Assembly (NCBI GenBank): GCA_037015955.1
Contig: CP143548.1
Span: 3,094,001 to 3,158,000, forward strand
Source: Lachnospiraceae bacterium JLR.KK008
GTDB taxonomy: Bacteria; Bacillota; Clostridia; Lachnospirales; Lachnospiraceae
DNA length: 64,000 bases
Direction of reading: 5' to 3'
Shown: positions 16,714 to 28,895 of the stretch, piece after piece
Numbering within the stretch: position 1 is the first letter of the stretch
Layout: each line of letters begins with the position of its first letter
Notes under the pieces: model-generated
Seen by the model: the letters and a program-made list of their open reading frames with translations, nothing else
Database searches by the model: none
Told to the model about the DNA's origin: nothing
Program-made: the position numbers and the translations under genes

Positions 16714-17985
16714 TTACACCCCAAACGACGAAAATGCCGGTATCACGATAATAATCATAATCAGTATCAACAGGAATGTCATAGGCAACAGGAGTTTTGT
16801 CCCGGCCTCCTCTCCGCAGCGTTTTGCACGCTCTTTTCTCTCCTGCAGCGCCTGATCCGTCTCATTTTTCAATGCTCTTTTCAATCCACCTGCACCACTT
16901 TGCATATACTGCACCAGCAATGCTGTAAATCGTACGATGCAGGGAAGTCCACACCTCAGACCCATATTTTGATATGCCGTTCTCTCCGGAATTCCGGCCT
17001 CCATTTCCCTGCATGTAATGAGCATTTCTTCATAAAGCATGATAGTTTTTTTGTTTTTTCTTTTTTGGTAGCCCGCTGCTATTTTATGAAATGCGCCTGA
17101 AATCGTCATACCGGTTCCAGCCAGCATTGTCATTCTCATTACCATCTTTGGGTACTCCCGCTCTATAGACGCGGCTCTCGCCTTTTTCTTTTTTTCTATT
17201 TCTTCCTGCTGTGCAAGCACCAATAATACTCCTGCCAATATTGACATCAGAAAAACTGTACCGCTGATTTTTTTCTTACGATTATAAAATCGAATCTCTT
17301 TCCCTTCAAATTGCTCAGGTAAAAAGTAACTGATCTGTTCCCGGCTTTCCGTTTCTAATTGTTTGAGCTTACGTTCCAACCTCTTCCAAAATTTTTCTCT
17401 GTCTTTAGATGGATACAGTTTTACATAAAAAATACGTTCCTGTTTGAATGTTCCTCGCTCCACAGATATGTCTGCCTGAATTTTTACAAGAGCCCCCTCC
17501 TGAGGAATCTCTTCTCCTACTTTCCCGTCTGATGACAATAAATCTTTTTCACTGCTCACCCATTTAATCACAAAAGGAAATGATTCCACTCTCTCTGGGA
17601 AAAACAAATCTTCTGTGACATAGTCAACAGTATTGTTTTGTCCGGGAATTTCTTTTTCCAGATTCTCCCACATAATTTCAGATAATTTTTCTAATTCTAT
17701 CTGACTGTACTCCTGCGGAAAAATCTCAACCTGTACTGTTCCTTTTTCTCCCTCCGCTTCAACCTCCAGTTCTACTGTCTTTTTCGTCCCTGATTTCTCT
17801 TCCCTTATCATTTCTGTCATTGTAGACTTATGATCTCCTGTCAAAAACATGATTTCGAGGAAGGCAGCTGCCAGACTTCCCGCTAATAAAATCACTGCAA
17901 CTTTCTGATCTGTCTTTTTCTTAACCAGTAAATACATCCCAATGAAAAACGTTGTAATATAAATTGCCATTGCGATCATATTCAT
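16714..17985 (-). CDS. tadC: Type II secretion F-domain protein, TadC
   Basis: Inner-membrane platform protein of the Flp pilus machine. About 423 residues: two N-terminal helices (about 5-20 and 33-48), a long soluble part (about 60-230) unusual for TadC, a further helix (about 240-258), then the GspF/TadC domain with helix-breaking TMLAGTGMTISGAFHKIA and a final hydrophobic helix. The start at 17985 gives an ATGA overlap with the tadB stop; an ATG two codons later has better ribosome spacing. Confidence 0.82.
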   Translation of the reverse strand: MNMIAMAIYITTFFIGMYLLVKKKTDQKVAVILLAGSLAAAFLEIMFLTGDHKSTMTEMIREEKSGTKKTVELEVEAEGEKGTVQVEIFPQEYSQIELEKLSEIMWENLEKEIPGQNNTVDYVTEDLFFPERVESFPFVIKWVSSEKDLLSSDGKVGEEIPQEGALVKIQADISVERGTFKQERIFYVKLYPSKDREKFWKRLERKLKQLETESREQISYFLPEQFEGKEIRFYNRKKKISGTVFLMSILAGVLLVLAQQEEIEKKKKARAASIEREYPKMVMRMTMLAGTGMTISGAFHKIAAGYQKRKNKKTIMLYEEMLITCREMEAGIPERTAYQNMGLRCGLPCIVRFTALLVQYMQSGAGGLKRALKNETDQALQERKERAKRCGEEAGTKLLLPMTFLLILIMIIIVIPAFSSFGV

Positions 17986-18764
17986 ACCTCGATTCTGATA
18001 ATATGGAGAGAAAGTCCTACTGAAAACAGGTATAGAAGAAGACATCCTGTCATAATACAGATTCCTGCAATATTATGGTAAAGGGGAGAAAAATATAGGG
18101 GAGAAGTAACCTGAATATAAGATATGATTGCGAAAGGCGCCAGACACATAATCTTCTGTTCCATTGATTTTCCATGTAAGAGCGTATGTATTTCCTGTTC
18201 CACCGCAGCTTTCATTGTAATGATCCCACAGCAGTTGTCTATCATCTCATTTAGATTTCCTCCCGTTCGTTTTCCAACTTCAAATACATCTGCAAAATTA
18301 CGAATATCTTCAACTCCGCTTCTCTGGGCAAAATCCCACAAGATATTTTCCAGGGTCACATTATTGAGAATCTGCTGCTTCATGTTTTGCACCTCAGTTT
18401 GAATATCTGTCTTATTACCATATAGCAGTTTTAACTCGTCCCCTGCTTTCAGAAAAGCATTTTCCACCGAATATCCCGAACGCAGACAAGATGCTGTCAC
18501 TTGAATCCAGTCTTTAAACTGCTGCTCCAATATATATTGTCTTCCTCTGCACAATTCTTTTTTCTGCCAACTGCAATAAAGTATCGAGCAGAAAATCCCC
18601 GGAATCAACACATATACTGTTTTGTAAAAGAAATATAAGATCAGACTGCCGACTATAAATCCTGTCATTCCATATTTTATCGTCTCTTTATGAGAGAGAC
18701 GGTAGATCCGGTAATCCTGCTGCCTTGAGCTTTTGCTTGAATGATAATTCTTTTTTAAATACAA
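17982..18764 (-). CDS. tadB: Type II secretion F-domain protein, TadB
   Basis: Partner platform protein of TadC: 260 residues, N-terminal helix pair (about 35-60), GspF-type core (SGYSVENAFLKAGDELKLLYG ...) and two C-terminal helices. The TTG start at 18764 is preceded by AAAGGAGGT with 12-base spacing, inside the end of cpaF, giving a 77-base overlap; an internal ATG at about residue 33 would remove it but has no ribosome site. The overlap implies tight coupling with the ATPase. Confidence 0.8.
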   Translation of the reverse strand: MYLKKNYHSSKSSRQQDYRIYRLSHKETIKYGMTGFIVGSLILYFFYKTVYVLIPGIFCSILYCSWQKKELCRGRQYILEQQFKDWIQVTASCLRSGYSVENAFLKAGDELKLLYGNKTDIQTEVQNMKQQILNNVTLENILWDFAQRSGVEDIRNFADVFEVGKRTGGNLNEMIDNCCGIITMKAAVEQEIHTLLHGKSMEQKIMCLAPFAIISYIQVTSPLYFSPLYHNIAGICIMTGCLLLYLFSVGLSLHIIRIEV

Positions 18765-19947
18765 GCTGCCCTGTTACCTCCTTTCTCTGATTCTCTGATG
18801 TCTCTTCAAAAATACAGAGCGTTTCCAATCTGATCTCCTCTCCGTCCATCCCTGCCACTTCCGCAATTTCTAAAACTTTTCTCGTCTTATCGCGAAGTCT
18901 CCCAAGATGAATAATAATATCGATTGCAGACGCGATCTGCCGACGTATTGCAGATACAGGCAGGTCCAACCCCATCAGCGCCATTGTCTCCAGTCTCGAC
19001 AGCATATCTCTCGCACTGTTGGCGTGTGCGGTAGACAATGAACCGTCATGACCGGTATTCAGGCATTGCAGCAAATCAACCGCCTCCCCTCCTCTGACTT
19101 CACCGATAATCAATCTCGTCGGCCTCATGCGCAGACTCGTACGGATCAGATCCCGGATTGTAATTTCCTCACATCCTTCCGCATTGGCATTTCTTGTCTC
19201 CAGTCTCACCAAATTCGGTGCATTCTGAATCTGCAGCTCCGCACTGTCTTCGATCGTAATGATCCTCTCCTCCCGCGGAATATAATCAGACAGCGCATTT
19301 AAAAATGTTGTCTTCCCGGAACCGGTTCCGCCGCTGATCAATATATTGTATCCTGCACGGACAAGCAATTCCAGCCACTTTGCTGTTTCTGCCGTAAGCG
19401 ATCCAATCTCGATCAGCTTTTTCATATTTACAGGTTCTTTCGGAAAACGACGAATTGTCATCACAGGTCCGTTTAAAGCGACCGGCCGCAACACGATATT
19501 GACACGCGAACCATCTTCCAGTCTGGCATCCACAATAGGAGAAGCCTCATTGACGACACGATTACATTTTGCTGTGATCTGCTGAATAATATCTTCCAGC
19601 TTTTCCCGTGATGAGAATGAATTTTCCCATAAATACAAAGTCCCACTTTTCTCAATAAATATATGGTCGGGTCCATTGATCATAATCTCCGTGATTTCTT
19701 CATCCTCAAGAATCTCCTGTAAAATGTCCAGTTTCCGAATGGCATAGAACAGTTCTTTTCCGAGTTTTTCTTTTTCCTTTAAACTCAGATAATCCTGATG
19801 TCCATATTCTGTCAGACTTTCACCGATCAGTTTCCTGATCTCCGTCTCTTCCATCTCTCTGGAATAATCGATTTTTTCATGGATATGCTGTAGTAGTTTT
19901 TCTTTTATTTTCTTGTCCTTTTTAAAACTTTTATTTTGATCATACAC
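18688..19947 (-). CDS. cpaF: CpaF/TadA family pilus assembly ATPase
   Basis: Hexameric secretion ATPase that powers Flp pilus assembly. The 419-residue protein shows the N-terminal helical domain (LSLKEKEKLGKELFYAIR), the Walker A ISGGTGSGKTTFLNAL at about residue 203, the Asp box, the Walker B IIGEVRGGEA and the histidine box TGHDGSLSTAHANS. All catalytic motifs are intact. Its ATG overlaps the tadZ stop. Confidence 0.95.
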   Translation of the reverse strand: MYDQNKSFKKDKKIKEKLLQHIHEKIDYSREMEETEIRKLIGESLTEYGHQDYLSLKEKEKLGKELFYAIRKLDILQEILEDEEITEIMINGPDHIFIEKSGTLYLWENSFSSREKLEDIIQQITAKCNRVVNEASPIVDARLEDGSRVNIVLRPVALNGPVMTIRRFPKEPVNMKKLIEIGSLTAETAKWLELLVRAGYNILISGGTGSGKTTFLNALSDYIPREERIITIEDSAELQIQNAPNLVRLETRNANAEGCEEITIRDLIRTSLRMRPTRLIIGEVRGGEAVDLLQCLNTGHDGSLSTAHANSARDMLSRLETMALMGLDLPVSAIRRQIASAIDIIIHLGRLRDKTRKVLEIAEVAGMDGEEIRLETLCIFEETSENQRKEVTGQLVFKKELSFKQKLKAAGLPDLPSLS

Positions 19948-20944
19948 GAAATTCTTCCTCCACCAACTTTCTCACATAGTCCGCCAGATCTCCATAGGTG
20001 TATTGTTCCATTTCCATTGGTATATTACGGATAAACGGGAGTTTATATTGCAGCGTCTTCTCCGCGACATCTTCATAGTCAGTACGTTCCAGCAATCTTT
20101 CATACTGACAGAGCTTAGCGGCAGCAGCGCTGTCTTCCCGGATCAGTGTAAATACTTTTTCACATCTGCGGAGTATTTCGAATAATCCCTGCAGATTGTC
20201 CGATAAATCGAGAATCAGAAATTCGTAATCCGTATGTTTCTCCAGTTCTTTAAACAACAGAAACCATTGCTCTAATGTAATGCGCGCCAGATCCATATAG
20301 GAGAAGGCCGGAGGAATATAATCAAGATTTTGAATTGTTTCTGTCATCCCTTTTAGTTTATAAAAAAGCGCATCTCTCGCATTGGTCACATAATAGATTA
20401 GATCTGACATATCTGTCATAAACTCTCTGTCCATGCGCTTGTCAAATCCGGAGAAACTCTCAAAATTCAAATACAATACTCTGTGATCTCTGGCAAGGAT
20501 CTCCCCGAGTGTGATTGCAAAGCTCGTCTGCATACTGCGGTGAACCGGTGTATACATTCCGATCATACGTATTTTGTTTTTTCTTGATTTCAAAACTGCA
20601 GGCTCTGATTCCGGCCTGGATCCGGCATAATATTGTATGGCCTCCTGTAATATTTTCCCGCAGGGCTGGTATTTATAAATCTGTTCTGTTTCCCCTTTTC
20701 TGTCCTTCTCTTCGCTTAAAATGATCACATCTCCTTTGATCCACTCTTTCAATGACAGATCATAGCTGTTTTCTGCAACCAATAAAATATCTACAATCTC
20801 TTCTCTGCAAAATGTTTTCAGCTTTTCTCTGGAAGTAAAAGCGGCAGCCTCAAATGGATACTCTGACTTATCGCTTACATAGTCACAAAAGCGTCTTACA
20901 TATTCCGCCTCTGTGTCAAATACAGCAAGAATCTGTTTCTTCAA
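19940..20944 (-). CDS. tadZ: TadZ/CpaE-like ParA-superfamily protein, degenerate P-loop
   Basis: About 334 residues: an N-terminal receiver-like region (about 5-110) and a ParA/MinD-like domain that localises Tad machinery in other bacteria. The nucleotide loop reads YTPVHRSMQTSFA and lacks the GKT of a normal deviant Walker A, so it is probably a poor ATPase or a non-hydrolysing scaffold. Start: an ATG at 20950 abuts the AAGGAGG site; the TTG two codons on (20944) has 8-base spacing and overlaps the upstream stop as TTGA, so it is preferred. Confidence 0.78.
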   Translation of the reverse strand: MKKQILAVFDTEAEYVRRFCDYVSDKSEYPFEAAAFTSREKLKTFCREEIVDILLVAENSYDLSLKEWIKGDVIILSEEKDRKGETEQIYKYQPCGKILQEAIQYYAGSRPESEPAVLKSRKNKIRMIGMYTPVHRSMQTSFAITLGEILARDHRVLYLNFESFSGFDKRMDREFMTDMSDLIYYVTNARDALFYKLKGMTETIQNLDYIPPAFSYMDLARITLEQWFLLFKELEKHTDYEFLILDLSDNLQGLFEILRRCEKVFTLIREDSAAAAKLCQYERLLERTDYEDVAEKTLQYKLPFIRNIPMEMEQYTYGDLADYVRKLVEEEFRV

Positions 20945-21369
20945 ATCCATCCCTCCTTACACAAAACAAATAAAATACCACCCACCAGGGGACCCGACAT
21001 GGGAATACGTTTTCCCAGACATAGTTTCTTTTTTAAAACTAACAGTAACACCGGAAACAGAGCGAAATAAACTCCGGCAAAGAATGCGCTCAATGCAAGC
21101 CTCCACGACAAATATACAGCTGTCACACCGAGCAGTTTTATATCACCTGCTCCTAAACTTCCAAGAAGATATAAGGGTAATAAAACGAGAATCATAACAC
21201 TTAGATGAAACAAAGAACATAAAATACTTTGGAAACCATTTTGTCTGATCTGATCAAGAATTGCACATGACAGTGCTGTGAAAATTAACAGATTAGAGAT
21301 CTTTTTCGAATGATAGTCTTCCCAGAGGGCAAAACTTAAAAATAAAAAAAGACTTACAATATGCTCCAC
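20941..21369 (-). CDS. A24 prepilin peptidase (first copy, heads the Tad operon)
   Basis: A 142-residue membrane aspartyl protease, with catalytic aspartates in LWEDYHSKKISN (about residue 17) and in the LGAGDIKLLG (GxGD) motif (about residue 75). It is the TadV/CpaA-type enzyme that cleaves Flp prepilin. The only upstream start in frame is GTG at 21369, which lies inside the GAGGAGG site; the true start may be slightly downstream at a rare codon. First gene of the Tad operon. Confidence 0.87.
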   Translation of the reverse strand: MEHIVSLFLFLSFALWEDYHSKKISNLLIFTALSCAILDQIRQNGFQSILCSLFHLSVMILVLLPLYLLGSLGAGDIKLLGVTAVYLSWRLALSAFFAGVYFALFPVLLLVLKKKLCLGKRIPMSGPLVGGILFVLCKEGWI

Positions 21370-21859: not shown

Positions 21860-22168
21860 ATGAAATCCTATTTCAGCAAAAGCTCCTATGTCGATAAAGA
21901 GGACAACAGTATACTAAACGATATTGCAAAGACCCGTCGCGCTCTTGAAACCGCCTATGCCGGTTTTGAAAACGCCACGGACCCTGACTTGATCGACTGC
22001 TATATTTATGAAGTAAATGCTGTACAGAAACGCTATAAATATCTGCTTCAGGAAGCAGCCAAATTAAATCTGGCAGCAGAGACACCAAAGGCAGAAAATT
22101 TATGCGAGGAATCCCCGGCTCCCCTCGTGCGACAGACTTTCCGTGAGTTTCCCTTTTCCGTAGGTTAA
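21860..22168 (+). CDS. DUF2508 (YaaL-like) protein
   Basis: A 102-residue, mostly helical protein; residues about 12-75 (IAKTRRALETAYAGFENATDPDLIDCYIYEVNAVQKRYKYLL) match the DUF2508 family, of unknown function. The last 25 residues are extra and are read from the antisense of fliS, with which the gene converges and overlaps by 69 bases. GGAAAGGCGG precedes the ATG. Its position next to bofA follows the Bacillus yaaL-bofA linkage. Confidence 0.82.
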   Translation: MKSYFSKSSYVDKEDNSILNDIAKTRRALETAYAGFENATDPDLIDCYIYEVNAVQKRYKYLLQEAAKLNLAAETPKAENLCEESPAPLVRQTFREFPFSVG

Positions 22169-22567
22169 TCCGGCATATACTGTCTGCGTATTCCCCATAA
22201 CAGGACCCGAAGTATCCTCCTGACTCACTGTCCGATAAGCCTCCATCAATTCCGTCATCACTTTTCGACAACGACTGAGAGGTTCTATACTGCCACGGAC
22301 ATCTGCTCCTGCCATTTCTTTATTGATATAACTATATAGCCGGAGCAGATTATGTGCTACTTCGTATCTGTGGTCGAGAGAATTCATCAGCTCGGTGACA
22401 CATCCTCTTGCCTTGCGGATCGCTTCCCGGAATTTATCCCGGTCATTCTGATCCCTGACCGCATCTTCTACATACGCCAGATACATTTCATAAAGTATTA
22501 CGATCAGCTCGCTCTTATTCGCCTGCGTGATCCGCATCGTAAAATTTTTTCTTGCTTCGTCCGTCAT
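22100..22567 (-). CDS. fliS: Flagellin chaperone FliS
   Basis: A 155-residue, helical cytosolic protein that would cap the C-terminal helices of newly made flagellin until export. Features of the family are ITQANKSELIVILYEMYLAYVEDA at the N-terminus and the four-helix core to about residue 125. The C-terminal 30 residues are a poorly conserved tail overlapping the convergent DUF2508 gene. It is 27 bases downstream of the flagellin gene and completes the DUF6240-flagellin-fliS operon. Confidence 0.85.
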   Translation of the reverse strand: MTDEARKNFTMRITQANKSELIVILYEMYLAYVEDAVRDQNDRDKFREAIRKARGCVTELMNSLDHRYEVAHNLLRLYSYINKEMAGADVRGSIEPLSRCRKVMTELMEAYRTVSQEDTSGPVMGNTQTVYAGLTYGKGKLTESLSHEGSRGFLA

Positions 22568-22594
22568 TTTATTTCCCTCTGATCAAAATCCGGA

Positions 22595-23809
22595 TTACTG
22601 AAGAAGCTGCAAAATCTGTGACGGCCTCTGATTTGCCTGTGCCAACATCGAAGTACCAGCCTGACTGAGCACCTGATCTTTCGTATATTCTGTCATTTCT
22701 TCCGCCATGTTCACATCGATAATCCGTGAATAAGCGGCAGTCATACTTTCCTCCGTCGTATCCAGACTCGATACAATATGCTCCAGACGATTCTCATAGG
22801 CGCCGAGACGGGAACGAATATTGGAAATCTCATTGATCGCTTTGGAAATTCTGTCAATCGATTTTCTCGCCTCATCTTCGGTCGAGACGTCCAGATCTTC
22901 GATCGCCAGATTTTTACTGGATACTTTCGGAATCCGAATATCCAAAGTCTGTCCTTCATTAGCCCCTACCTGCATTGTCATAGCGCCAATACCGGTCAGA
23001 TCCAGAACTACAACTTTGTCACCAGGTATATCTCCGGATGCCACCAGGGCTTCCAGATCGATCTCCAATGTCAGAGAGAAACTTTTATCTGCAGTGATTG
23101 TCACAGTGCTCATCTTCTCATCATACGAATAGATCTGATTATCCACTGTCTGCTGAGGAACCGGTTTGCCATGTACATTCATTGTCGCAGTGCCGCCCGG
23201 TCCTGCTGCCGCTCCATTGATCGTCGCACCGGTAAAATAATACTCACCGGTGACTGCATCCTGATAAGAATGTATCTCCAACTCATAGAAACCGGCTCTT
23301 GCTTCATCCGAATATGACTGTATTTTAATCGCAGACGTATTCAGGACCGCATTGGCTTTGTCAGACTTCTCCACATATCCTTTCAGATCAAAGGTGCCAT
23401 CTAATAATATACTTCCGTTATATTCTGTGGAATCGGCGATACGGTCAATCTCTTCCAACAAAGAATCAACTTCCTCCTGAACAATCTGTCTGTCACCGTC
23501 AGACAAAGGACCGTTGGACGCTTTGATGCTCAATTCATTCAGCCTTTGTAACATATCATGCACTTCTGAGAGCGTACCTTCCGCTACACCGATTACGGAA
23601 ATTCCGTCGTTGGCATTTTGCTCGGCTCTTGTCATACTTCTGATCTGTGCATTCATCCTTTTGGCAATGGCAATACCGGAAGGGCTGTCTTTCGCATGGT
23701 TGATCTTATAACCGGAAGACAACTTTTCAATGGAATTGGACAATGCGTTTTCTGATTTTGTGAGGCAGTCATTGGTTATGATTGCCGACATATTAAAGTT
23801 TATTTTCAT
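22595..23809 (-). CDS. Flagellin (divergent)
   Basis: A 404-residue flagellin: conserved N-terminal D0/D1 helices (LSNSIEKLSSGYKINHAKDS and IRSMTRAEQNANDGISVIG), a variable centre (about 140-310) and a conserved C-terminal D1/D0 (GTSMLAQANQRPSQILQLLQ). It is unusual in having SPSGIAIAKRM where most have DDAAGLAIS, and a cysteine at residue 14. The ATG at 23809 lies inside the end of the DUF6240 gene (17-base overlap), with AAAGGGG as ribosome site. It may be a minor or specialised filament protein; no other flagellin gene is in view. Confidence 0.92.
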   Translation of the reverse strand: MKINFNMSAIITNDCLTKSENALSNSIEKLSSGYKINHAKDSPSGIAIAKRMNAQIRSMTRAEQNANDGISVIGVAEGTLSEVHDMLQRLNELSIKASNGPLSDGDRQIVQEEVDSLLEEIDRIADSTEYNGSILLDGTFDLKGYVEKSDKANAVLNTSAIKIQSYSDEARAGFYELEIHSYQDAVTGEYYFTGATINGAAAGPGGTATMNVHGKPVPQQTVDNQIYSYDEKMSTVTITADKSFSLTLEIDLEALVASGDIPGDKVVVLDLTGIGAMTMQVGANEGQTLDIRIPKVSSKNLAIEDLDVSTEDEARKSIDRISKAINEISNIRSRLGAYENRLEHIVSSLDTTEESMTAAYSRIIDVNMAEEMTEYTKDQVLSQAGTSMLAQANQRPSQILQLLQ

Positions 23810-26800
23810 TATAGGAACCCCTTTCTGACTGTTTACGTACGACACTTATCACTGTTTTTGCAATGTTGTAAAGCCTTTTTGTGGAAGTCTGACTCTGCTG
23901 ACCCTGATTCGTCTCTTCAGAAAAGCCGGTGTGCAGATTTTTACGGAAGCCAATATCCATACTCTCTGTCCGCAGACCTGTCTGCTCCAGGCGTTCTCTG
24001 ATCTGCTCCTGCATCTCCTGTAATGCTTCATCGCTTCCCTTCTGGGAACCGATCAAAAATCCTTTTACCTGATCGTCTTCGAGCTGAAGTTTGATGACAA
24101 TCTTTCCATAAGCCTCCATATCCATGGATGCTTCCACCATTCCTTTATTTATATCGGAATGAATCACCTGAAGATGAAGTGCCATCACCGAATCTTCCAT
24201 CATAACCGGAATTTCATATCTCTCGGTGTCCGCCAGTTTTGCTGTAAACGAAACCTGTTTATAGATCAGACCAAGCTGTCTCATATCCAGAGAAGTCACA
24301 TTGTCTGTCTCATACATGGCCTCATCCAATATCTCTTTTTGCGTATCTGCCAGTTTATGATAAGCCTCGGCTGCCTCTTCCCTGCTCTCAAAATTTTCTT
24401 CCAGCTGCGCAATTTTTTCTTCCAGCTGGTTTTTATTATCGACAGAATGCGCATCCGCTTCCTGTCTGATCTTTTTCCAAGCTCCGGACATATCCTGTTC
24501 GCAGGCCGCCATTGCTCTGACATTTTCCAGCGTGACCGGTTCTTCCAACATTTCCAGCATATTCACAGCATTTTTTTCCACTTGCTGCGCCTGTCTGTAC
24601 TGTGCGATCTGCTCTCTCCGGTAAGCGCTGTCTGCCGATCTGTCGCTCTCTGTCTGACGCATTTTCTCGGCAAACGCCTCCAGACCCATAGCTTCATCCA
24701 CTGCCGCCCCAATCAGCTTGTCGGCATCCAGATTGTTATAAATTTCACGACTGAGCCGTCTGTAATAGTCGATTTCCTTTTCCTGTTTCGTTCCCGTAAA
24801 GGCCGCATCAATCTGACTGTCTATCGAAACACCTTTTTCTTTTACTTCGTGCAACACGCCCGTATCGTCATCCACTGCCGTATCCATCCGCTTTGCATGT
24901 GCGGTCCGCACTGCCGTGAGCAAATTTTTAAAGGAAAGCTCACCACCTTGATGGATCAGGCTTCCAATCACTGCCCCGTCGGACTTTTCCACCTGGCGGA
25001 GAAGCCGGTAAATTCCAATGTAAGACTGCTTTTCTTCTTCTGTAATTTCTTTCTTCTGTTCCAGTTTATATAAAAATCTGCTGAACTTCTCCTGTTCCTT
25101 CTGCGGATCGTCCTGCTGCTGTCTGCTCAGATAATCATCCAGCTCTTCCACTGTCATTGCCAGCGGATTTTTACCGTCCCGGATCATTTGCAGAGTGGCT
25201 GCAGGCGTCATCTTCTGAACGACATTGCGCAATGCCTGATCAGCCGCTTTTACTGTCGCTATATTTTCTTCCGTGATCTCCAGTTGATTATAACCAAGTA
25301 TTCTCACGGCTCTCTTATTGGCATCGGTCGTCTCCAGTCCTAATTCTTCCAGCAGACTTTCCGTACTGTCAAACGCTTTTCGGATAGAATCTCCCATATC
25401 ACTGCGCGGAGCGGTCTGGAATGTTTCATAACTCTCATTGGCCTTTTTGTAAGCTAAGGCCAGTGCTTCCCCTTCCTCCCTTACCTGATGCAATGTAAAT
25501 TCAGACTGTGAAACACTTACCCGGCCCACAACTGCTGCCGGCATCTGCGGGATACTTTGAACCGCAGCCGTTGCCTCTTCGTACAGTGCGGCTCTCTCCG
25601 CAGTCTCCTGCGTCCCTTCCCCTCCAAATAAAATCCTGTTTTGCGCATCTTCGACATCTTTCAGAGCCTCTATCACTTTTTCCAGCTCTTGTGTCTCAAT
25701 CGAATAACCGCTCTTCAACAGTTCTCTGTTGGCAGCGATTGTCATCTGTAGTCTGATTTCTTCCAACTGCCTTCTGGCCGCAGCGTTCTCTTCCGTAACA
25801 TGATAATAACCACTTTCCAGTAACCTTTGCGCCGCATCCAGATTGCGCAGTGTCAGGCTCTTTCCCTGACCGGCAGTCAGATCTGCCGCCTGATCTGAAA
25901 GCTCCTGCGTCCGCTTCCAGATCTTTGCCGCCTGTTCCCAGAGAGAAAGAGCTCCTGTCAGATTCGCCCTGGAAGGTTTTTTTCCGTCTGCTACTGCTGC
26001 CGCCATCGCCTGCATTAATGCTTTCTGCCCGATCGGCAGAGAGATATTTTTCATTTCCATATAAGAAGTCAGAGTCTCTTTCGTCAGCGGGATACCGGAG
26101 CTGATCAGCCACTTTGCCCCTTCTTCGGCCTCCGCCACTCCTTCCAGTCCGGCATCTTCAATGATATGATCTATTTGAGATTTTAGTCCGTCCCAGTTAA
26201 AATCTTCCGCTTTTTTTGTCAAATATCCGAGATCGTCCCGATAATAGCCCTTTCCCTGTCTGCCCATCTGCTCCGTACTACTGTACTGTGCCACATAAAG
26301 ATCTTCTATAACCGGTTCTTTTCCGTTCGTAATCATGTATTTGGCAGCATCATCACTTGGCTCTGACAATTTCCCTGCCTCTTCCAATGCCTGAAACGCC
26401 ATTTTTGCAGTCTCTTCCGTGAGTGGCACACCCATCTCAGAAAATGTCCGTGACATTTCTTCTGCCAGTGCCGCATCTCCTGTTATTTCCGTCAGCGTTT
26501 CCATATCGATCGTGTCCGTATATCCTGCTATCGATACCCCAGCCTGCATCAGAGACGCCTTAATCCTGTCTACGATCGTCACGGCAGTCTCCACTTCCGT
26601 ATCTCCCGGTTCATAACCGTTCTCCTGAAGATTTGCAAAGTCTTCATCGGACATTGTATTCGACATAACTGCCATATAGTCGCGCGTCAGAGCAACATTT
26701 TGCCTGCCCGCTTCCTGCATAATCTCTTCTGTCGTTTTTGCATGTCCCTTTTCTATCTCATGGCCGGAAGCTGTTTTCCCAATATCAATCGTATAACCGG

Positions 26801-26897
26801 TTTCTGTGCCGATCCTGCGGACCGCGGATTCTCTCTGTGCTGTCTGGTATCTTTCTATTTTCTGATCCCTGTCTGTCGGCTGGAATGTGATTTTCAT
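23793..26897 (-). CDS. DUF6240 protein with FliK-like C-terminal segment
   Basis: A 1034-residue, largely helical, glutamine- and glutamate-rich protein without signal peptide or membrane segment, assigned to DUF6240. The first 300 residues hold several 35-40-residue repeats of the form xLTxExxxxMxxxGxPLT. Residues about 905-987 (ASMDMEAYGKIVIKLQLEDD, later RERLEQTGLRTESMDIGF) resemble the C-terminal domain of FliK, the flagellar hook-length protein. GGAGA lies 4 bases before the ATG at 26897; earlier starts lack a site. First gene of a flagellar operon with a sigma-D-type promoter. Confidence 0.75.
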   Translation of the reverse strand: MKITFQPTDRDQKIERYQTAQRESAVRRIGTETGYTIDIGKTASGHEIEKGHAKTTEEIMQEAGRQNVALTRDYMAVMSNTMSDEDFANLQENGYEPGDTEVETAVTIVDRIKASLMQAGVSIAGYTDTIDMETLTEITGDAALAEEMSRTFSEMGVPLTEETAKMAFQALEEAGKLSEPSDDAAKYMITNGKEPVIEDLYVAQYSSTEQMGRQGKGYYRDDLGYLTKKAEDFNWDGLKSQIDHIIEDAGLEGVAEAEEGAKWLISSGIPLTKETLTSYMEMKNISLPIGQKALMQAMAAAVADGKKPSRANLTGALSLWEQAAKIWKRTQELSDQAADLTAGQGKSLTLRNLDAAQRLLESGYYHVTEENAAARRQLEEIRLQMTIAANRELLKSGYSIETQELEKVIEALKDVEDAQNRILFGGEGTQETAERAALYEEATAAVQSIPQMPAAVVGRVSVSQSEFTLHQVREEGEALALAYKKANESYETFQTAPRSDMGDSIRKAFDSTESLLEELGLETTDANKRAVRILGYNQLEITEENIATVKAADQALRNVVQKMTPAATLQMIRDGKNPLAMTVEELDDYLSRQQQDDPQKEQEKFSRFLYKLEQKKEITEEEKQSYIGIYRLLRQVEKSDGAVIGSLIHQGGELSFKNLLTAVRTAHAKRMDTAVDDDTGVLHEVKEKGVSIDSQIDAAFTGTKQEKEIDYYRRLSREIYNNLDADKLIGAAVDEAMGLEAFAEKMRQTESDRSADSAYRREQIAQYRQAQQVEKNAVNMLEMLEEPVTLENVRAMAACEQDMSGAWKKIRQEADAHSVDNKNQLEEKIAQLEENFESREEAAEAYHKLADTQKEILDEAMYETDNVTSLDMRQLGLIYKQVSFTAKLADTERYEIPVMMEDSVMALHLQVIHSDINKGMVEASMDMEAYGKIVIKLQLEDDQVKGFLIGSQKGSDEALQEMQEQIRERLEQTGLRTESMDIGFRKNLHTGFSEETNQGQQSQTSTKRLYNIAKTVISVVRKQSERGSYNENKL

Positions 26898-26961
26898 ACA
26901 ATCTCCTTGTTGTCTAAAAAGTAATAGAATAAAAGGCAAGCGCACAATGCACTCACCTTTT

Positions 26962-26988
26962 ATTTCGGCTTGCTCTATAATTTTCTTA
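26962..26988 (-). promoter_or_regulatory. Sigma-D (FliA)-type flagellar promoter
   Basis: On the minus strand, TAAG (26988-26985), 15 bases, then GCCGAAAT (26969-26962). This fits the late-flagellar consensus TAAA-N15-GCCGATAT at 10 of 12 positions. It sits about 65 bases before the DUF6240 start codon and just beyond the glgB stop. Confidence 0.75.
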
Positions 26989-26990
26989 AC

Positions 26991-28895
26991 CTAAAAAACA
27001 AATATGGCAGATGTGTACGGCGGAAGATCAAAACAGATTGAATAATCCCGGTAGTCGCACGGCGTTTTTTCCGCTGCGATCGACAGAGGAATCTCATTGC
27101 CATCTCCTCCGAATTTCGTATCATCACTGTTGAGCAGCAATTTATATTTCTTTTTATCAGGGACACCGACACGATATTCCTTTCTCTCCATCGGCGTCAT
27201 ATTCATGACAAACAACAATTTTTGTTTACCGGACGGACATTTGCGGATAAAGGCATAGGTACTCTGTTCTGCGTCGTCAGCTTTAACCCATTCGAATCCT
27301 TCCCAGCTGTTATCAATTTCATGCAGACAGGAATACTTCCGGTAGATTTTCAACAGTTCCGCTACATAGTCCTGCATACCACGATTTAATTCCTCGCCGA
27401 GCAGAAACCAGTCAAGCTCTCTCTCTTCACTCCACTCTCTCTCCTGACCGAATTCCTGGCCCATAAACAACAGTTTCTTTCCCTCGTGACCGAACATGTA
27501 TGTATATCCGGTCCTTAAGTTTGCATACTTGTCTTTCTGGTATCCTGGCATTTTGTTGACCATCGAACATTTGAGATGAACGACTTCATCGTGAGACAGC
27601 GGCATAATATAGTTTTCGCTGTCATTATAGCTCATGGCAAACGTCATCGCATAATGATTTCCCTTCCGATAAATCGGGTCCAGTTTCATATATTCGCAGA
27701 AATCATGCATCCAGCCCATATTCCATTTAAAGCTGAAATACAGACCGCCTTCCTCGATCGACCCTGTTACTTTTGGCCAGGCAGTCGATTCCTCAGCGAT
27801 TGTCATCACACCCGGGAATGTCCCGCGGATGACAGAATTCATATGTTTGAAAAATTCGATCGCTTCCAGATTTTTATTATCGCCATATTTATTGGCCACC
27901 CATTGACCATCCTGCTTTCCATAATCCAGATAAAGCATGGAAGCGACAGCGTCAACCCGCAGACCATCGATATGAAATTCTTTGATCCAGAAAAGAGCGT
28001 TGGCAATCAGAAAATTGACAACTTCATTTTTACTGTAATTAAATATTTTCGTTCCCCAGTCCGGATGTTCCCCGAGTCGCGAATCCGGATGTTCAAACAC
28101 GGCAGAGCCATCAAATTCCGCCAGGCCATGTGCATCTTTTGGAAAATGAGCGGGTACCCAGTCCAGAATTACGCCGATCTTATTCTTATGAAGTTTATTG
28201 ACAAGATATGCAAACTCTTTCGGCGTCCCATATCTGGAAGTAGGCGCATAATAACCAGTCACCTGATAACCCCAGGAACCATCAAACGGATGTTCTGCAA
28301 TTCCCATCAGCTCCACATGTGTATAGCGCATTTTTTTCAGATATTTGACAAGCGCGTCTGCAAATTCCTTATAACTGTAAAACCCTTCACTTTCTTCATC
28401 AGGATGGCGCATCCAGGAACCGATATGACATTCATAAATTGCGATCGGCTCCGCATTCAGATCTTTTTTTTCTCTCGCTTCCATCCATTCGCTGTCTGAC
28501 CATTTGATATGACCGAGATCGGTGATGACAGACGCCGTATCAGGCCGTTTTTGTGCATAATTGGCAAAAGGGTCCGCCTTGTACAATTTTCTTCCATCCT
28601 GCGCTGTGACCAGAAATTTATATAATTCTCCCTCTTTGATACCAGGTATAAACAGAGTATAGATACCGATGGGACCGATTTTTTCCATCTCATGAATTTC
28701 CTCATCCCAGTCGTTAAAACTGCCTATAACATTGACTTTTGCCGCATTTGGCGCCCAAACCGCAAAAAATACCCCTTTTTTCCCCTTTTCTTCGGATAGA
28801 TGCGCACCCAGTTTTTTATAAATATCATAATGCGTACCCTTCGCAAACAAATACTGATCTGCTTCCGAAATAAATACAGTCTCCCGCTCTGCCAT
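26991..28895 (-). CDS. glgB: 1,4-alpha-glucan branching enzyme
   Basis: Makes alpha-1,6 branches in glycogen. The 634-residue protein has an N-terminal CBM48 (about 25-110, FAVWAPNAAKVNVIGSFNDW) and a GH13 barrel with the catalytic nucleophile in GLRVDAVASM, the acid/base in IAEEST and the transition-state aspartate in LSHDEVVH, followed by the C-terminal beta domain. AGGAGG precedes the ATG. The 971-residue protein gene ends 22 bases upstream on the same strand. A glycogen-debranching gene at the end of the window completes the branching/debranching pair, though 34 kb away. Confidence 0.96.
   Translation of the reverse strand: MAERETVFISEADQYLFAKGTHYDIYKKLGAHLSEEKGKKGVFFAVWAPNAAKVNVIGSFNDWDEEIHEMEKIGPIGIYTLFIPGIKEGELYKFLVTAQDGRKLYKADPFANYAQKRPDTASVITDLGHIKWSDSEWMEAREKKDLNAEPIAIYECHIGSWMRHPDEESEGFYSYKEFADALVKYLKKMRYTHVELMGIAEHPFDGSWGYQVTGYYAPTSRYGTPKEFAYLVNKLHKNKIGVILDWVPAHFPKDAHGLAEFDGSAVFEHPDSRLGEHPDWGTKIFNYSKNEVVNFLIANALFWIKEFHIDGLRVDAVASMLYLDYGKQDGQWVANKYGDNKNLEAIEFFKHMNSVIRGTFPGVMTIAEESTAWPKVTGSIEEGGLYFSFKWNMGWMHDFCEYMKLDPIYRKGNHYAMTFAMSYNDSENYIMPLSHDEVVHLKCSMVNKMPGYQKDKYANLRTGYTYMFGHEGKKLLFMGQEFGQEREWSEERELDWFLLGEELNRGMQDYVAELLKIYRKYSCLHEIDNSWEGFEWVKADDAEQSTYAFIRKCPSGKQKLLFVMNMTPMERKEYRVGVPDKKKYKLLLNSDDTKFGGDGNEIPLSIAAEKTPCDYRDYSICFDLPPYTSAIFVF

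Follow-up and report, generated by a model that had tools for sequence, protein, structure and literature searches.

A clostridial flagellin cassette with a giant YlqG-type relative of FliK suggests a second control step in flagellar secretion

Results

A giant FliK-like gene in a flagellin operon

The window, the stretch of DNA analysed here, comprises 64,000 nucleotides of the closed 3.19 Mb genome of Lachnospiraceae bacterium JLR.KK008. A sigma-D-like promoter, a gene for a DUF6240 protein of 1034 residues, a flagellin gene and fliS follow one another on its minus strand, all located as the original prediction had described them:

26962..26988, minus strand: sigma-D(28)-like promoter, TAAG-N15-GCCGAAAT, recognized by its motif; the same class lies upstream in relatives
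23793..26897, minus strand: giant FliK-like DUF6240 gene, 1034 aa (open reading frame and Pfam)
26688..26897, minus strand: DUF6240 residues 1-70, predicted disordered (AlphaFold), without the YlqG-like N-domain of some orthologues
24228..26732, minus strand: DUF6240 residues 56-890, repeated alpha-helical array, including Pfam DUF6240 at 378-660
23946..24221, minus strand: DUF6240 residues 893-984, FliK-type switch domain (Pfam, hhalign, Foldseek)
23799..23882, minus strand: DUF6240 residues 1006-1033, C-terminal helix bearing LYxxAK, a motif specific to Lachnospiraceae
22595..23809, minus strand: partner flagellin, 404 aa, of the clade found with DUF6240
22100..22567, minus strand: cassette fliS, 155 aa, the second FliS of the genome

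The flagellin coding sequence overlaps that of DUF6240 by 17 bases, and Shine-Dalgarno-like purines precede each of the three genes. Directly upstream of DUF6240, on the same strand and with its end abutting the promoter, lies glgB (glycogen-branching-enzyme-like, 26991-28895); this family is present in 43 of 81 DUF6240 loci, on the same strand in 42. Downstream of the flagellin cassette there are Tad/Flp-type pilus genes at 16714-21369 (CpaE-like, CpaF/TadA-like ATPase, prepilin peptidase-like), a neighbourhood that recurs in up to 41 of the 81 loci. A small conserved open reading frame of 102 aa (21860-22168, plus strand) overlaps the 3' end of fliS by 69 bases on the opposite strand and is kept in 18 loci.

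Domains and fold of DUF6240

The window protein matches the DUF6240 profile (PF19753) in two stretches, with 408.9 bits against a gathering score of 26.6. Its match to Flg_hook (PF02120) at residues 921-984 is borderline, 28.7 bits in hmmscan and 32.5 bits in a six-frame search at a cut-off of 29.8 bits, and 9 of 24 DUF6240 relatives match this family. A profile sequence search of the PDB gave nothing significant (2RRL, E 0.12); it took a fold search to place the domain. In the AlphaFold model of the window protein, residues 1-70 are disordered, 56-890 form a helical array, 893-984 a beta-rich domain and, after a linker, 1006-1033 a long final helix. For the last 173 residues predicted in isolation (pLDDT 86.6), Foldseek returned from the PDB first 2RRL, the Salmonella FliK C-domain (probability 1.00, E 2.7e-3), the counterpart expected by the original prediction, and second 5CUK, the PscP switch domain (probability 1.00, E 7.6e-3). 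These are the sole matches of probability 1.00 among the matches listed, and they are likewise the top two for the full-length model. The E-values are modest, none reaching 0.001, and the PDB matches of the model include no structural similarity to hook-associated proteins.

Foldseek, Pfam, hhalign and the presence of the same domain in relatives firmly identify the C-domain as FliK-type. It had been predicted to occupy the C-terminal 80 residues; the fold is as proposed, but the position is about 893-984. The remainder is indeed a repeated helical region, as seen in the model and in a profile self-alignment (columns 97-697 against 400-825, E 1e-15). DUF6240 does not have the largely disordered N-terminal ruler of FliK, since in the model residues 1-70 alone are disordered, followed by the array. 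Two giants are much enlarged (L333 and L069, 1801 and 1730 aa), and their sizes suggest that the repeat number can expand.

Linkage and promoters in Lachnospiraceae

Among 299 genomes of the family, many of them metagenome-assembled, DUF6240 was matched in 128, of which two (G120 and G151) have weak matches and no flagellin match, leaving 126. These 126 are all among the 156 genomes that have a flagellin (lists compared by eye); the 143 genomes without flagellin have no strong DUF6240 match. DUF6240, flagellin and fliS lie in this order on one strand in 75 of 81 loci (80 loci and the window), and in 75 of 78 in a second collection, where the exceptions are contig ends; the two sets may share species. 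DUF6240 has a mean pairwise identity of 27%, so the conserved gene order does not merely reflect recent relatedness. DUF6240 is no longer directly beside flagellin at L062/L311 (genome G166), L116, L075, L079 and L095.

A sigma-D-like motif lies upstream of DUF6240 in 53 of the 81 loci; shuffled sequence gives an expectation of 1.3, and 32 of 478 other open reading frames have it, which rules out a chance promoter. The motif also precedes 28 of 78 partner flagellins and 2 of 77 fliS genes. From these counts DUF6240 looks late, and some partner flagellins appear to have a promoter of their own. The late sigma-D-like control that had been predicted is supported for Lachnospiraceae; upstream of the giants outside this family (see below), the motif is rare (4/45), and late timing may not be general. 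The 17-base overlap was considered as a signal of translational coupling and rejected, since it is not conserved (the spacing between DUF6240 and flagellin varies in relatives from -107 to about +210 bases) and many relatives have the motif before the flagellin.

One flagellin clade

DUF6240 has been inherited together with one flagellin subfamily and FliS. The flagellins beside it form one clade (support 100/100), in agreement with the predicted pairing with one particular flagellin. Only two further rows fall within it: that of G166, which has DUF6240 with adjacency lost, and that of G208, in which the flagellin begins at contig base 141. The remaining flagellins of the DUF6240 genomes lie outside the clade, as do those of 30 flagellates without DUF6240, save G208 (contig edge). 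According to Table 1 of Neville et al. 2013 (PMC3720852), Roseburia and Eubacterium have a "clade a" flagellin that is present in single copy and starts with MRINYNVSA or MKINRNMSA, and its sigma-28 promoter is predicted there. Judged from ten N-terminal residues, this flagellin probably corresponds to the DUF6240 partner; the accessible part of the paper reports no linkage to DUF6240 or FliK.

Ancestry of DUF6240

Flagellin_N is matched four times in the window genome, and FliS is encoded twice. Its three Flg_hook proteins are canonical FliK, DUF6240 and K2, a further FliK-like protein with a length of about 590-605 aa. Canonical fliK (490 aa, Flg_hook E 2.2e-20) adjoins a flgD-like gene and stands apart from DUF6240, whose neighbours are flagellin and fliS and not the early hook genes (flgD) typical of FliK. 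The original prediction had counted against itself a separate canonical fliK combined with DUF6240 genes away from flagellar genes; the former exists, but DUF6240 remains with flagellar genes. K2 lies in the order rplS-lepB-rbgA-lepB-rnhB-K2-FlhX-yraN, with FlhX adjacent in 14 of 18 cases, which we take to be the ylqG-ylqH arrangement of Bacillus subtilis. This rplS-rbgA-rnhB-ylqG-flhX-yraN locus is separate from DUF6240 and has its own protein, and no FlhX lies beside DUF6240 in the window.

By profile comparison, DUF6240 is an enlarged paralogue of the YlqG-type protein, whether by descent or through a shared ancestor, because it matches K2 better than canonical FliK and over a greater length. 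In hhalign, the C-terminal part aligns with K2 over 145 columns (E 1.2e-8), and with canonical FliK over 81 columns (E 9.3e-6). The helical repeats also match K2, co-linearly (E 2e-5); the N-domain kept in 11 DUF6240 orthologues, absent in the window protein, matches that of K2 (E 4e-10); and YlqG-type proteins of other Clostridia match DUF6240 models too. The proposal of a variation on FliK is therefore right as to the fold, but the nearest relative is a YlqG-type protein beside a free-standing FlhB C-domain, not canonical FliK. A literature search found no paper naming DUF6240, none on FliK with YlqG and none relevant on FlhX/YlqH; the FliK-like and FlhB-like papers it returned concern, in their accessible parts, other systems.

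A four-gene cassette outside the family

In a class-wide search, other families of Clostridia also yielded giants that carry DUF6240 repeats. The order there is giant FliK, FlhX, flagellin, FliS: among 45 such loci, flagellin lies downstream in 36, fliS in 34 and FlhX between giant and flagellin in 30, the other 15 cassette loci being without FlhX. FlhX matches only positions 262-335 of PF01312, the last 74 of the FlhB family, and has no PTH in 30 of 30 cases; on this sequence evidence it is the cleaved C-domain of FlhB in free-standing form. A second tree unites 31 flagellins of the outside cassettes with the Lachnospiraceae partners in a single clade (100/96); the former are sister to that of the window, and the flagellins that their genomes encode outside the cassette lie apart. 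Very long flagellins of 851, 820 and 1157 aa (L333, L341, L348), as well as a 1377-aa open frame for a flagellin (G761:C1:3177587), lie beside or near giant FliK-like genes.

The window has a giant with DUF6240 repeats upstream of a cassette-clade flagellin and fliS, with no FlhX between giant and flagellin; FlhX has been lost in the Lachnospiraceae form. Our preferred reading is that the locus represents, in its Lachnospiraceae version, an ancient clostridial cassette of a giant FliK-like protein, in some cases FlhX, flagellin and FliS. In two genomes (G712 and G690), the sole other Flagellin_N match is weaker and looks like FlgL, and if it is FlgL, these genomes may have no flagellin besides that of the cassette; therefore, the system would not be only a selector among flagellins. 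Another genome (G319) resembles these two, with a FlgL-like other match, and its flagellin is absent from the tree.

The FlhB-contact residue and a new C-terminal helix

In Salmonella FliK, Val302 and Ile304 adjoin or bind FlhB-C (PMC6972891). At the equivalent positions, assigned by alignment, the window protein has Ile and Ile. Among 80 Lachnospiraceae DUF6240 proteins, the Val302 equivalent is aliphatic in 70 and the Ile304 equivalent in 14, the latter being Ala, Gly or Ser in 63; the Ile304 equivalent is aliphatic in 17 of 18 K2 proteins, 30 of 30 giants with FlhX and 15 of 15 giants without it. This replacement makes FlhB binding by Lachnospiraceae DUF6240 appear doubtful, and the loss of FlhX alone does not explain it, since giants without FlhX keep the residue. 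The C-terminal LYxxAK helix is present in 71 of the 80 Lachnospiraceae proteins, compared with 1 of 63 others.

Discussion

The cleaved C-domain of FlhB is the target of FliK, and in the current view the two act a single time, when the hook is complete. We propose that DUF6240 may belong to a module that acts late at the gate, in the manner of FliK and FlhB, on behalf of one flagellin-FliS pair, a mechanism with about an even chance of being correct, built on an ancestry and a linkage that are plain from the data. The giant would be made late, after the hook-to-filament switch, and its FliK-type C-domain would work on the export gate of the flagellum, at the position of the FlhB C-domain (FlhX or FlhB). 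It would set the gate there for the FliS-bound partner flagellin, in a second step of FliK/FlhB type reserved for that flagellin. In Lachnospiraceae, which have lost FlhX from the locus and have an altered contact surface, the C-domain and the new helix probably dock elsewhere, possibly on FlhA-C, FliS or flagellin, and the role at the gate would be kept.

A further gate step fits the model that secreted FliK causes FlhB-CCD to be ejected at the switch, as given in the accessible part of PMC13344023, since the cassette pairs a FliK relative with a spare CCD. More tentatively, and at less than even probability, we suggest a second specificity switch after the hook-to-filament switch, in which giant and FlhX replace or exchange the ejected FlhB-CCD and admit only the FliS-bound cassette flagellin, the contact having been re-engineered in Lachnospiraceae after FlhX loss. 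Several observations count against the gate module: the giant is modelled mostly as folded helices and not as a disordered tape, its export is putative, and the loss of the Ile304 equivalent in most Lachnospiraceae proteins, the scarcity of the motif outside the family, the outside loci without FlhX and the modest Foldseek E-values weigh in the same direction.

Because the docking partner has probably changed in Lachnospiraceae, the gate module is placed no higher than even, and an appreciable share goes to a reading that we consider unlikely, in which DUF6240 is an unsecreted scaffold in the cytoplasm. Its helical array and C-terminal helix would hold the FliS-bound partner flagellin and pass it on to FlhA/FlhB, with the FliK-type domain as a docking module only. 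The gene order, the mostly folded repeats, and the frequent loss of the Ile304 equivalent along with the gain of a conserved C-terminal helix would suit this arrangement; however, FliS already chaperones flagellin, and the outside cassettes, with FlhX and the retained contact residue, point to FlhB-type switching. An exported accessory acting outside the cell, as a length gauge, sheath or joint for a filament segment of the partner flagellin, is distinctly improbable: the promoter, the predicted disorder of the first 70 residues and the co-inheritance with one flagellin clade could be read as marks of a late substrate, but similarity to hook-associated proteins is missing among the PDB matches, FlhX in the cassette suggests a function at the gate, and to our knowledge a filament ruler has no precedent.

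Adjacency alone is no proof of interaction, and the operon may be an old one kept for co-regulation, with DUF6240 having some late function in the flagellum that has no bearing on how this flagellin is secreted. We regard this as slightly less probable still, as the three genes stay together despite the deep divergence of DUF6240 and across several Clostridia families, and DUF6240 accompanies this flagellin clade also in G166, where the two genes are no longer adjacent. That DUF6240 serves as the canonical hook-length ruler, the fliK of its host, is the least probable of all, with almost nothing to recommend it: the FliK-type C-domain is the one feature in its favour, while the separate fliK with its flgD-like neighbour is the reason to reject it, and the company of flagellin, the late-type promoter and the better profile match to the YlqG type speak against it as well.

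Many gut and anaerobic bacteria have such a giant, and the data suggest a second, hitherto undescribed control step of flagellar secretion after hook building. If this is true, type III secretion in the flagellum is controlled once more after hook completion, and specifically for one flagellin, PF19753 gains a role, the distinct single-copy flagellin that many motile gut Lachnospiraceae have in addition to their usual ones is explained, and a natural replacement of FlhB-CCD is on offer for the recent CCD-ejection model.

Comparison with known systems

FliK (PF02120) and DUF6240 have in common the fold of the C-terminal switch domain and the flagellar context. DUF6240 differs in its giant repeated helical N-terminal part, in its place beside flagellin and fliS behind a promoter of late type, in coexisting with a separate canonical fliK, and in the contact Ile that is mostly lost in Lachnospiraceae. 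The YlqG-type protein is co-linear with DUF6240 in the N-domain (of some orthologues), the helical repeats and the extended C-domain, and its FlhX neighbour is kept in the outside cassettes; it has about 600 aa and lies away from flagellin, whereas the giants mostly have 700-1176 aa and the window form is without N-domain and FlhX. FlhX corresponds only to the CCD part of FlhB, from which it differs as a gene of its own, without PTH, beside flagellin. The SctP/PscP rulers of injectisomes share the switch-domain fold, as 5CUK indicates, but belong to a different system without a flagellin partner. The "clade a" flagellins, as far as the accessible part of their description goes, share their start with the partner flagellin and occur once per genome.
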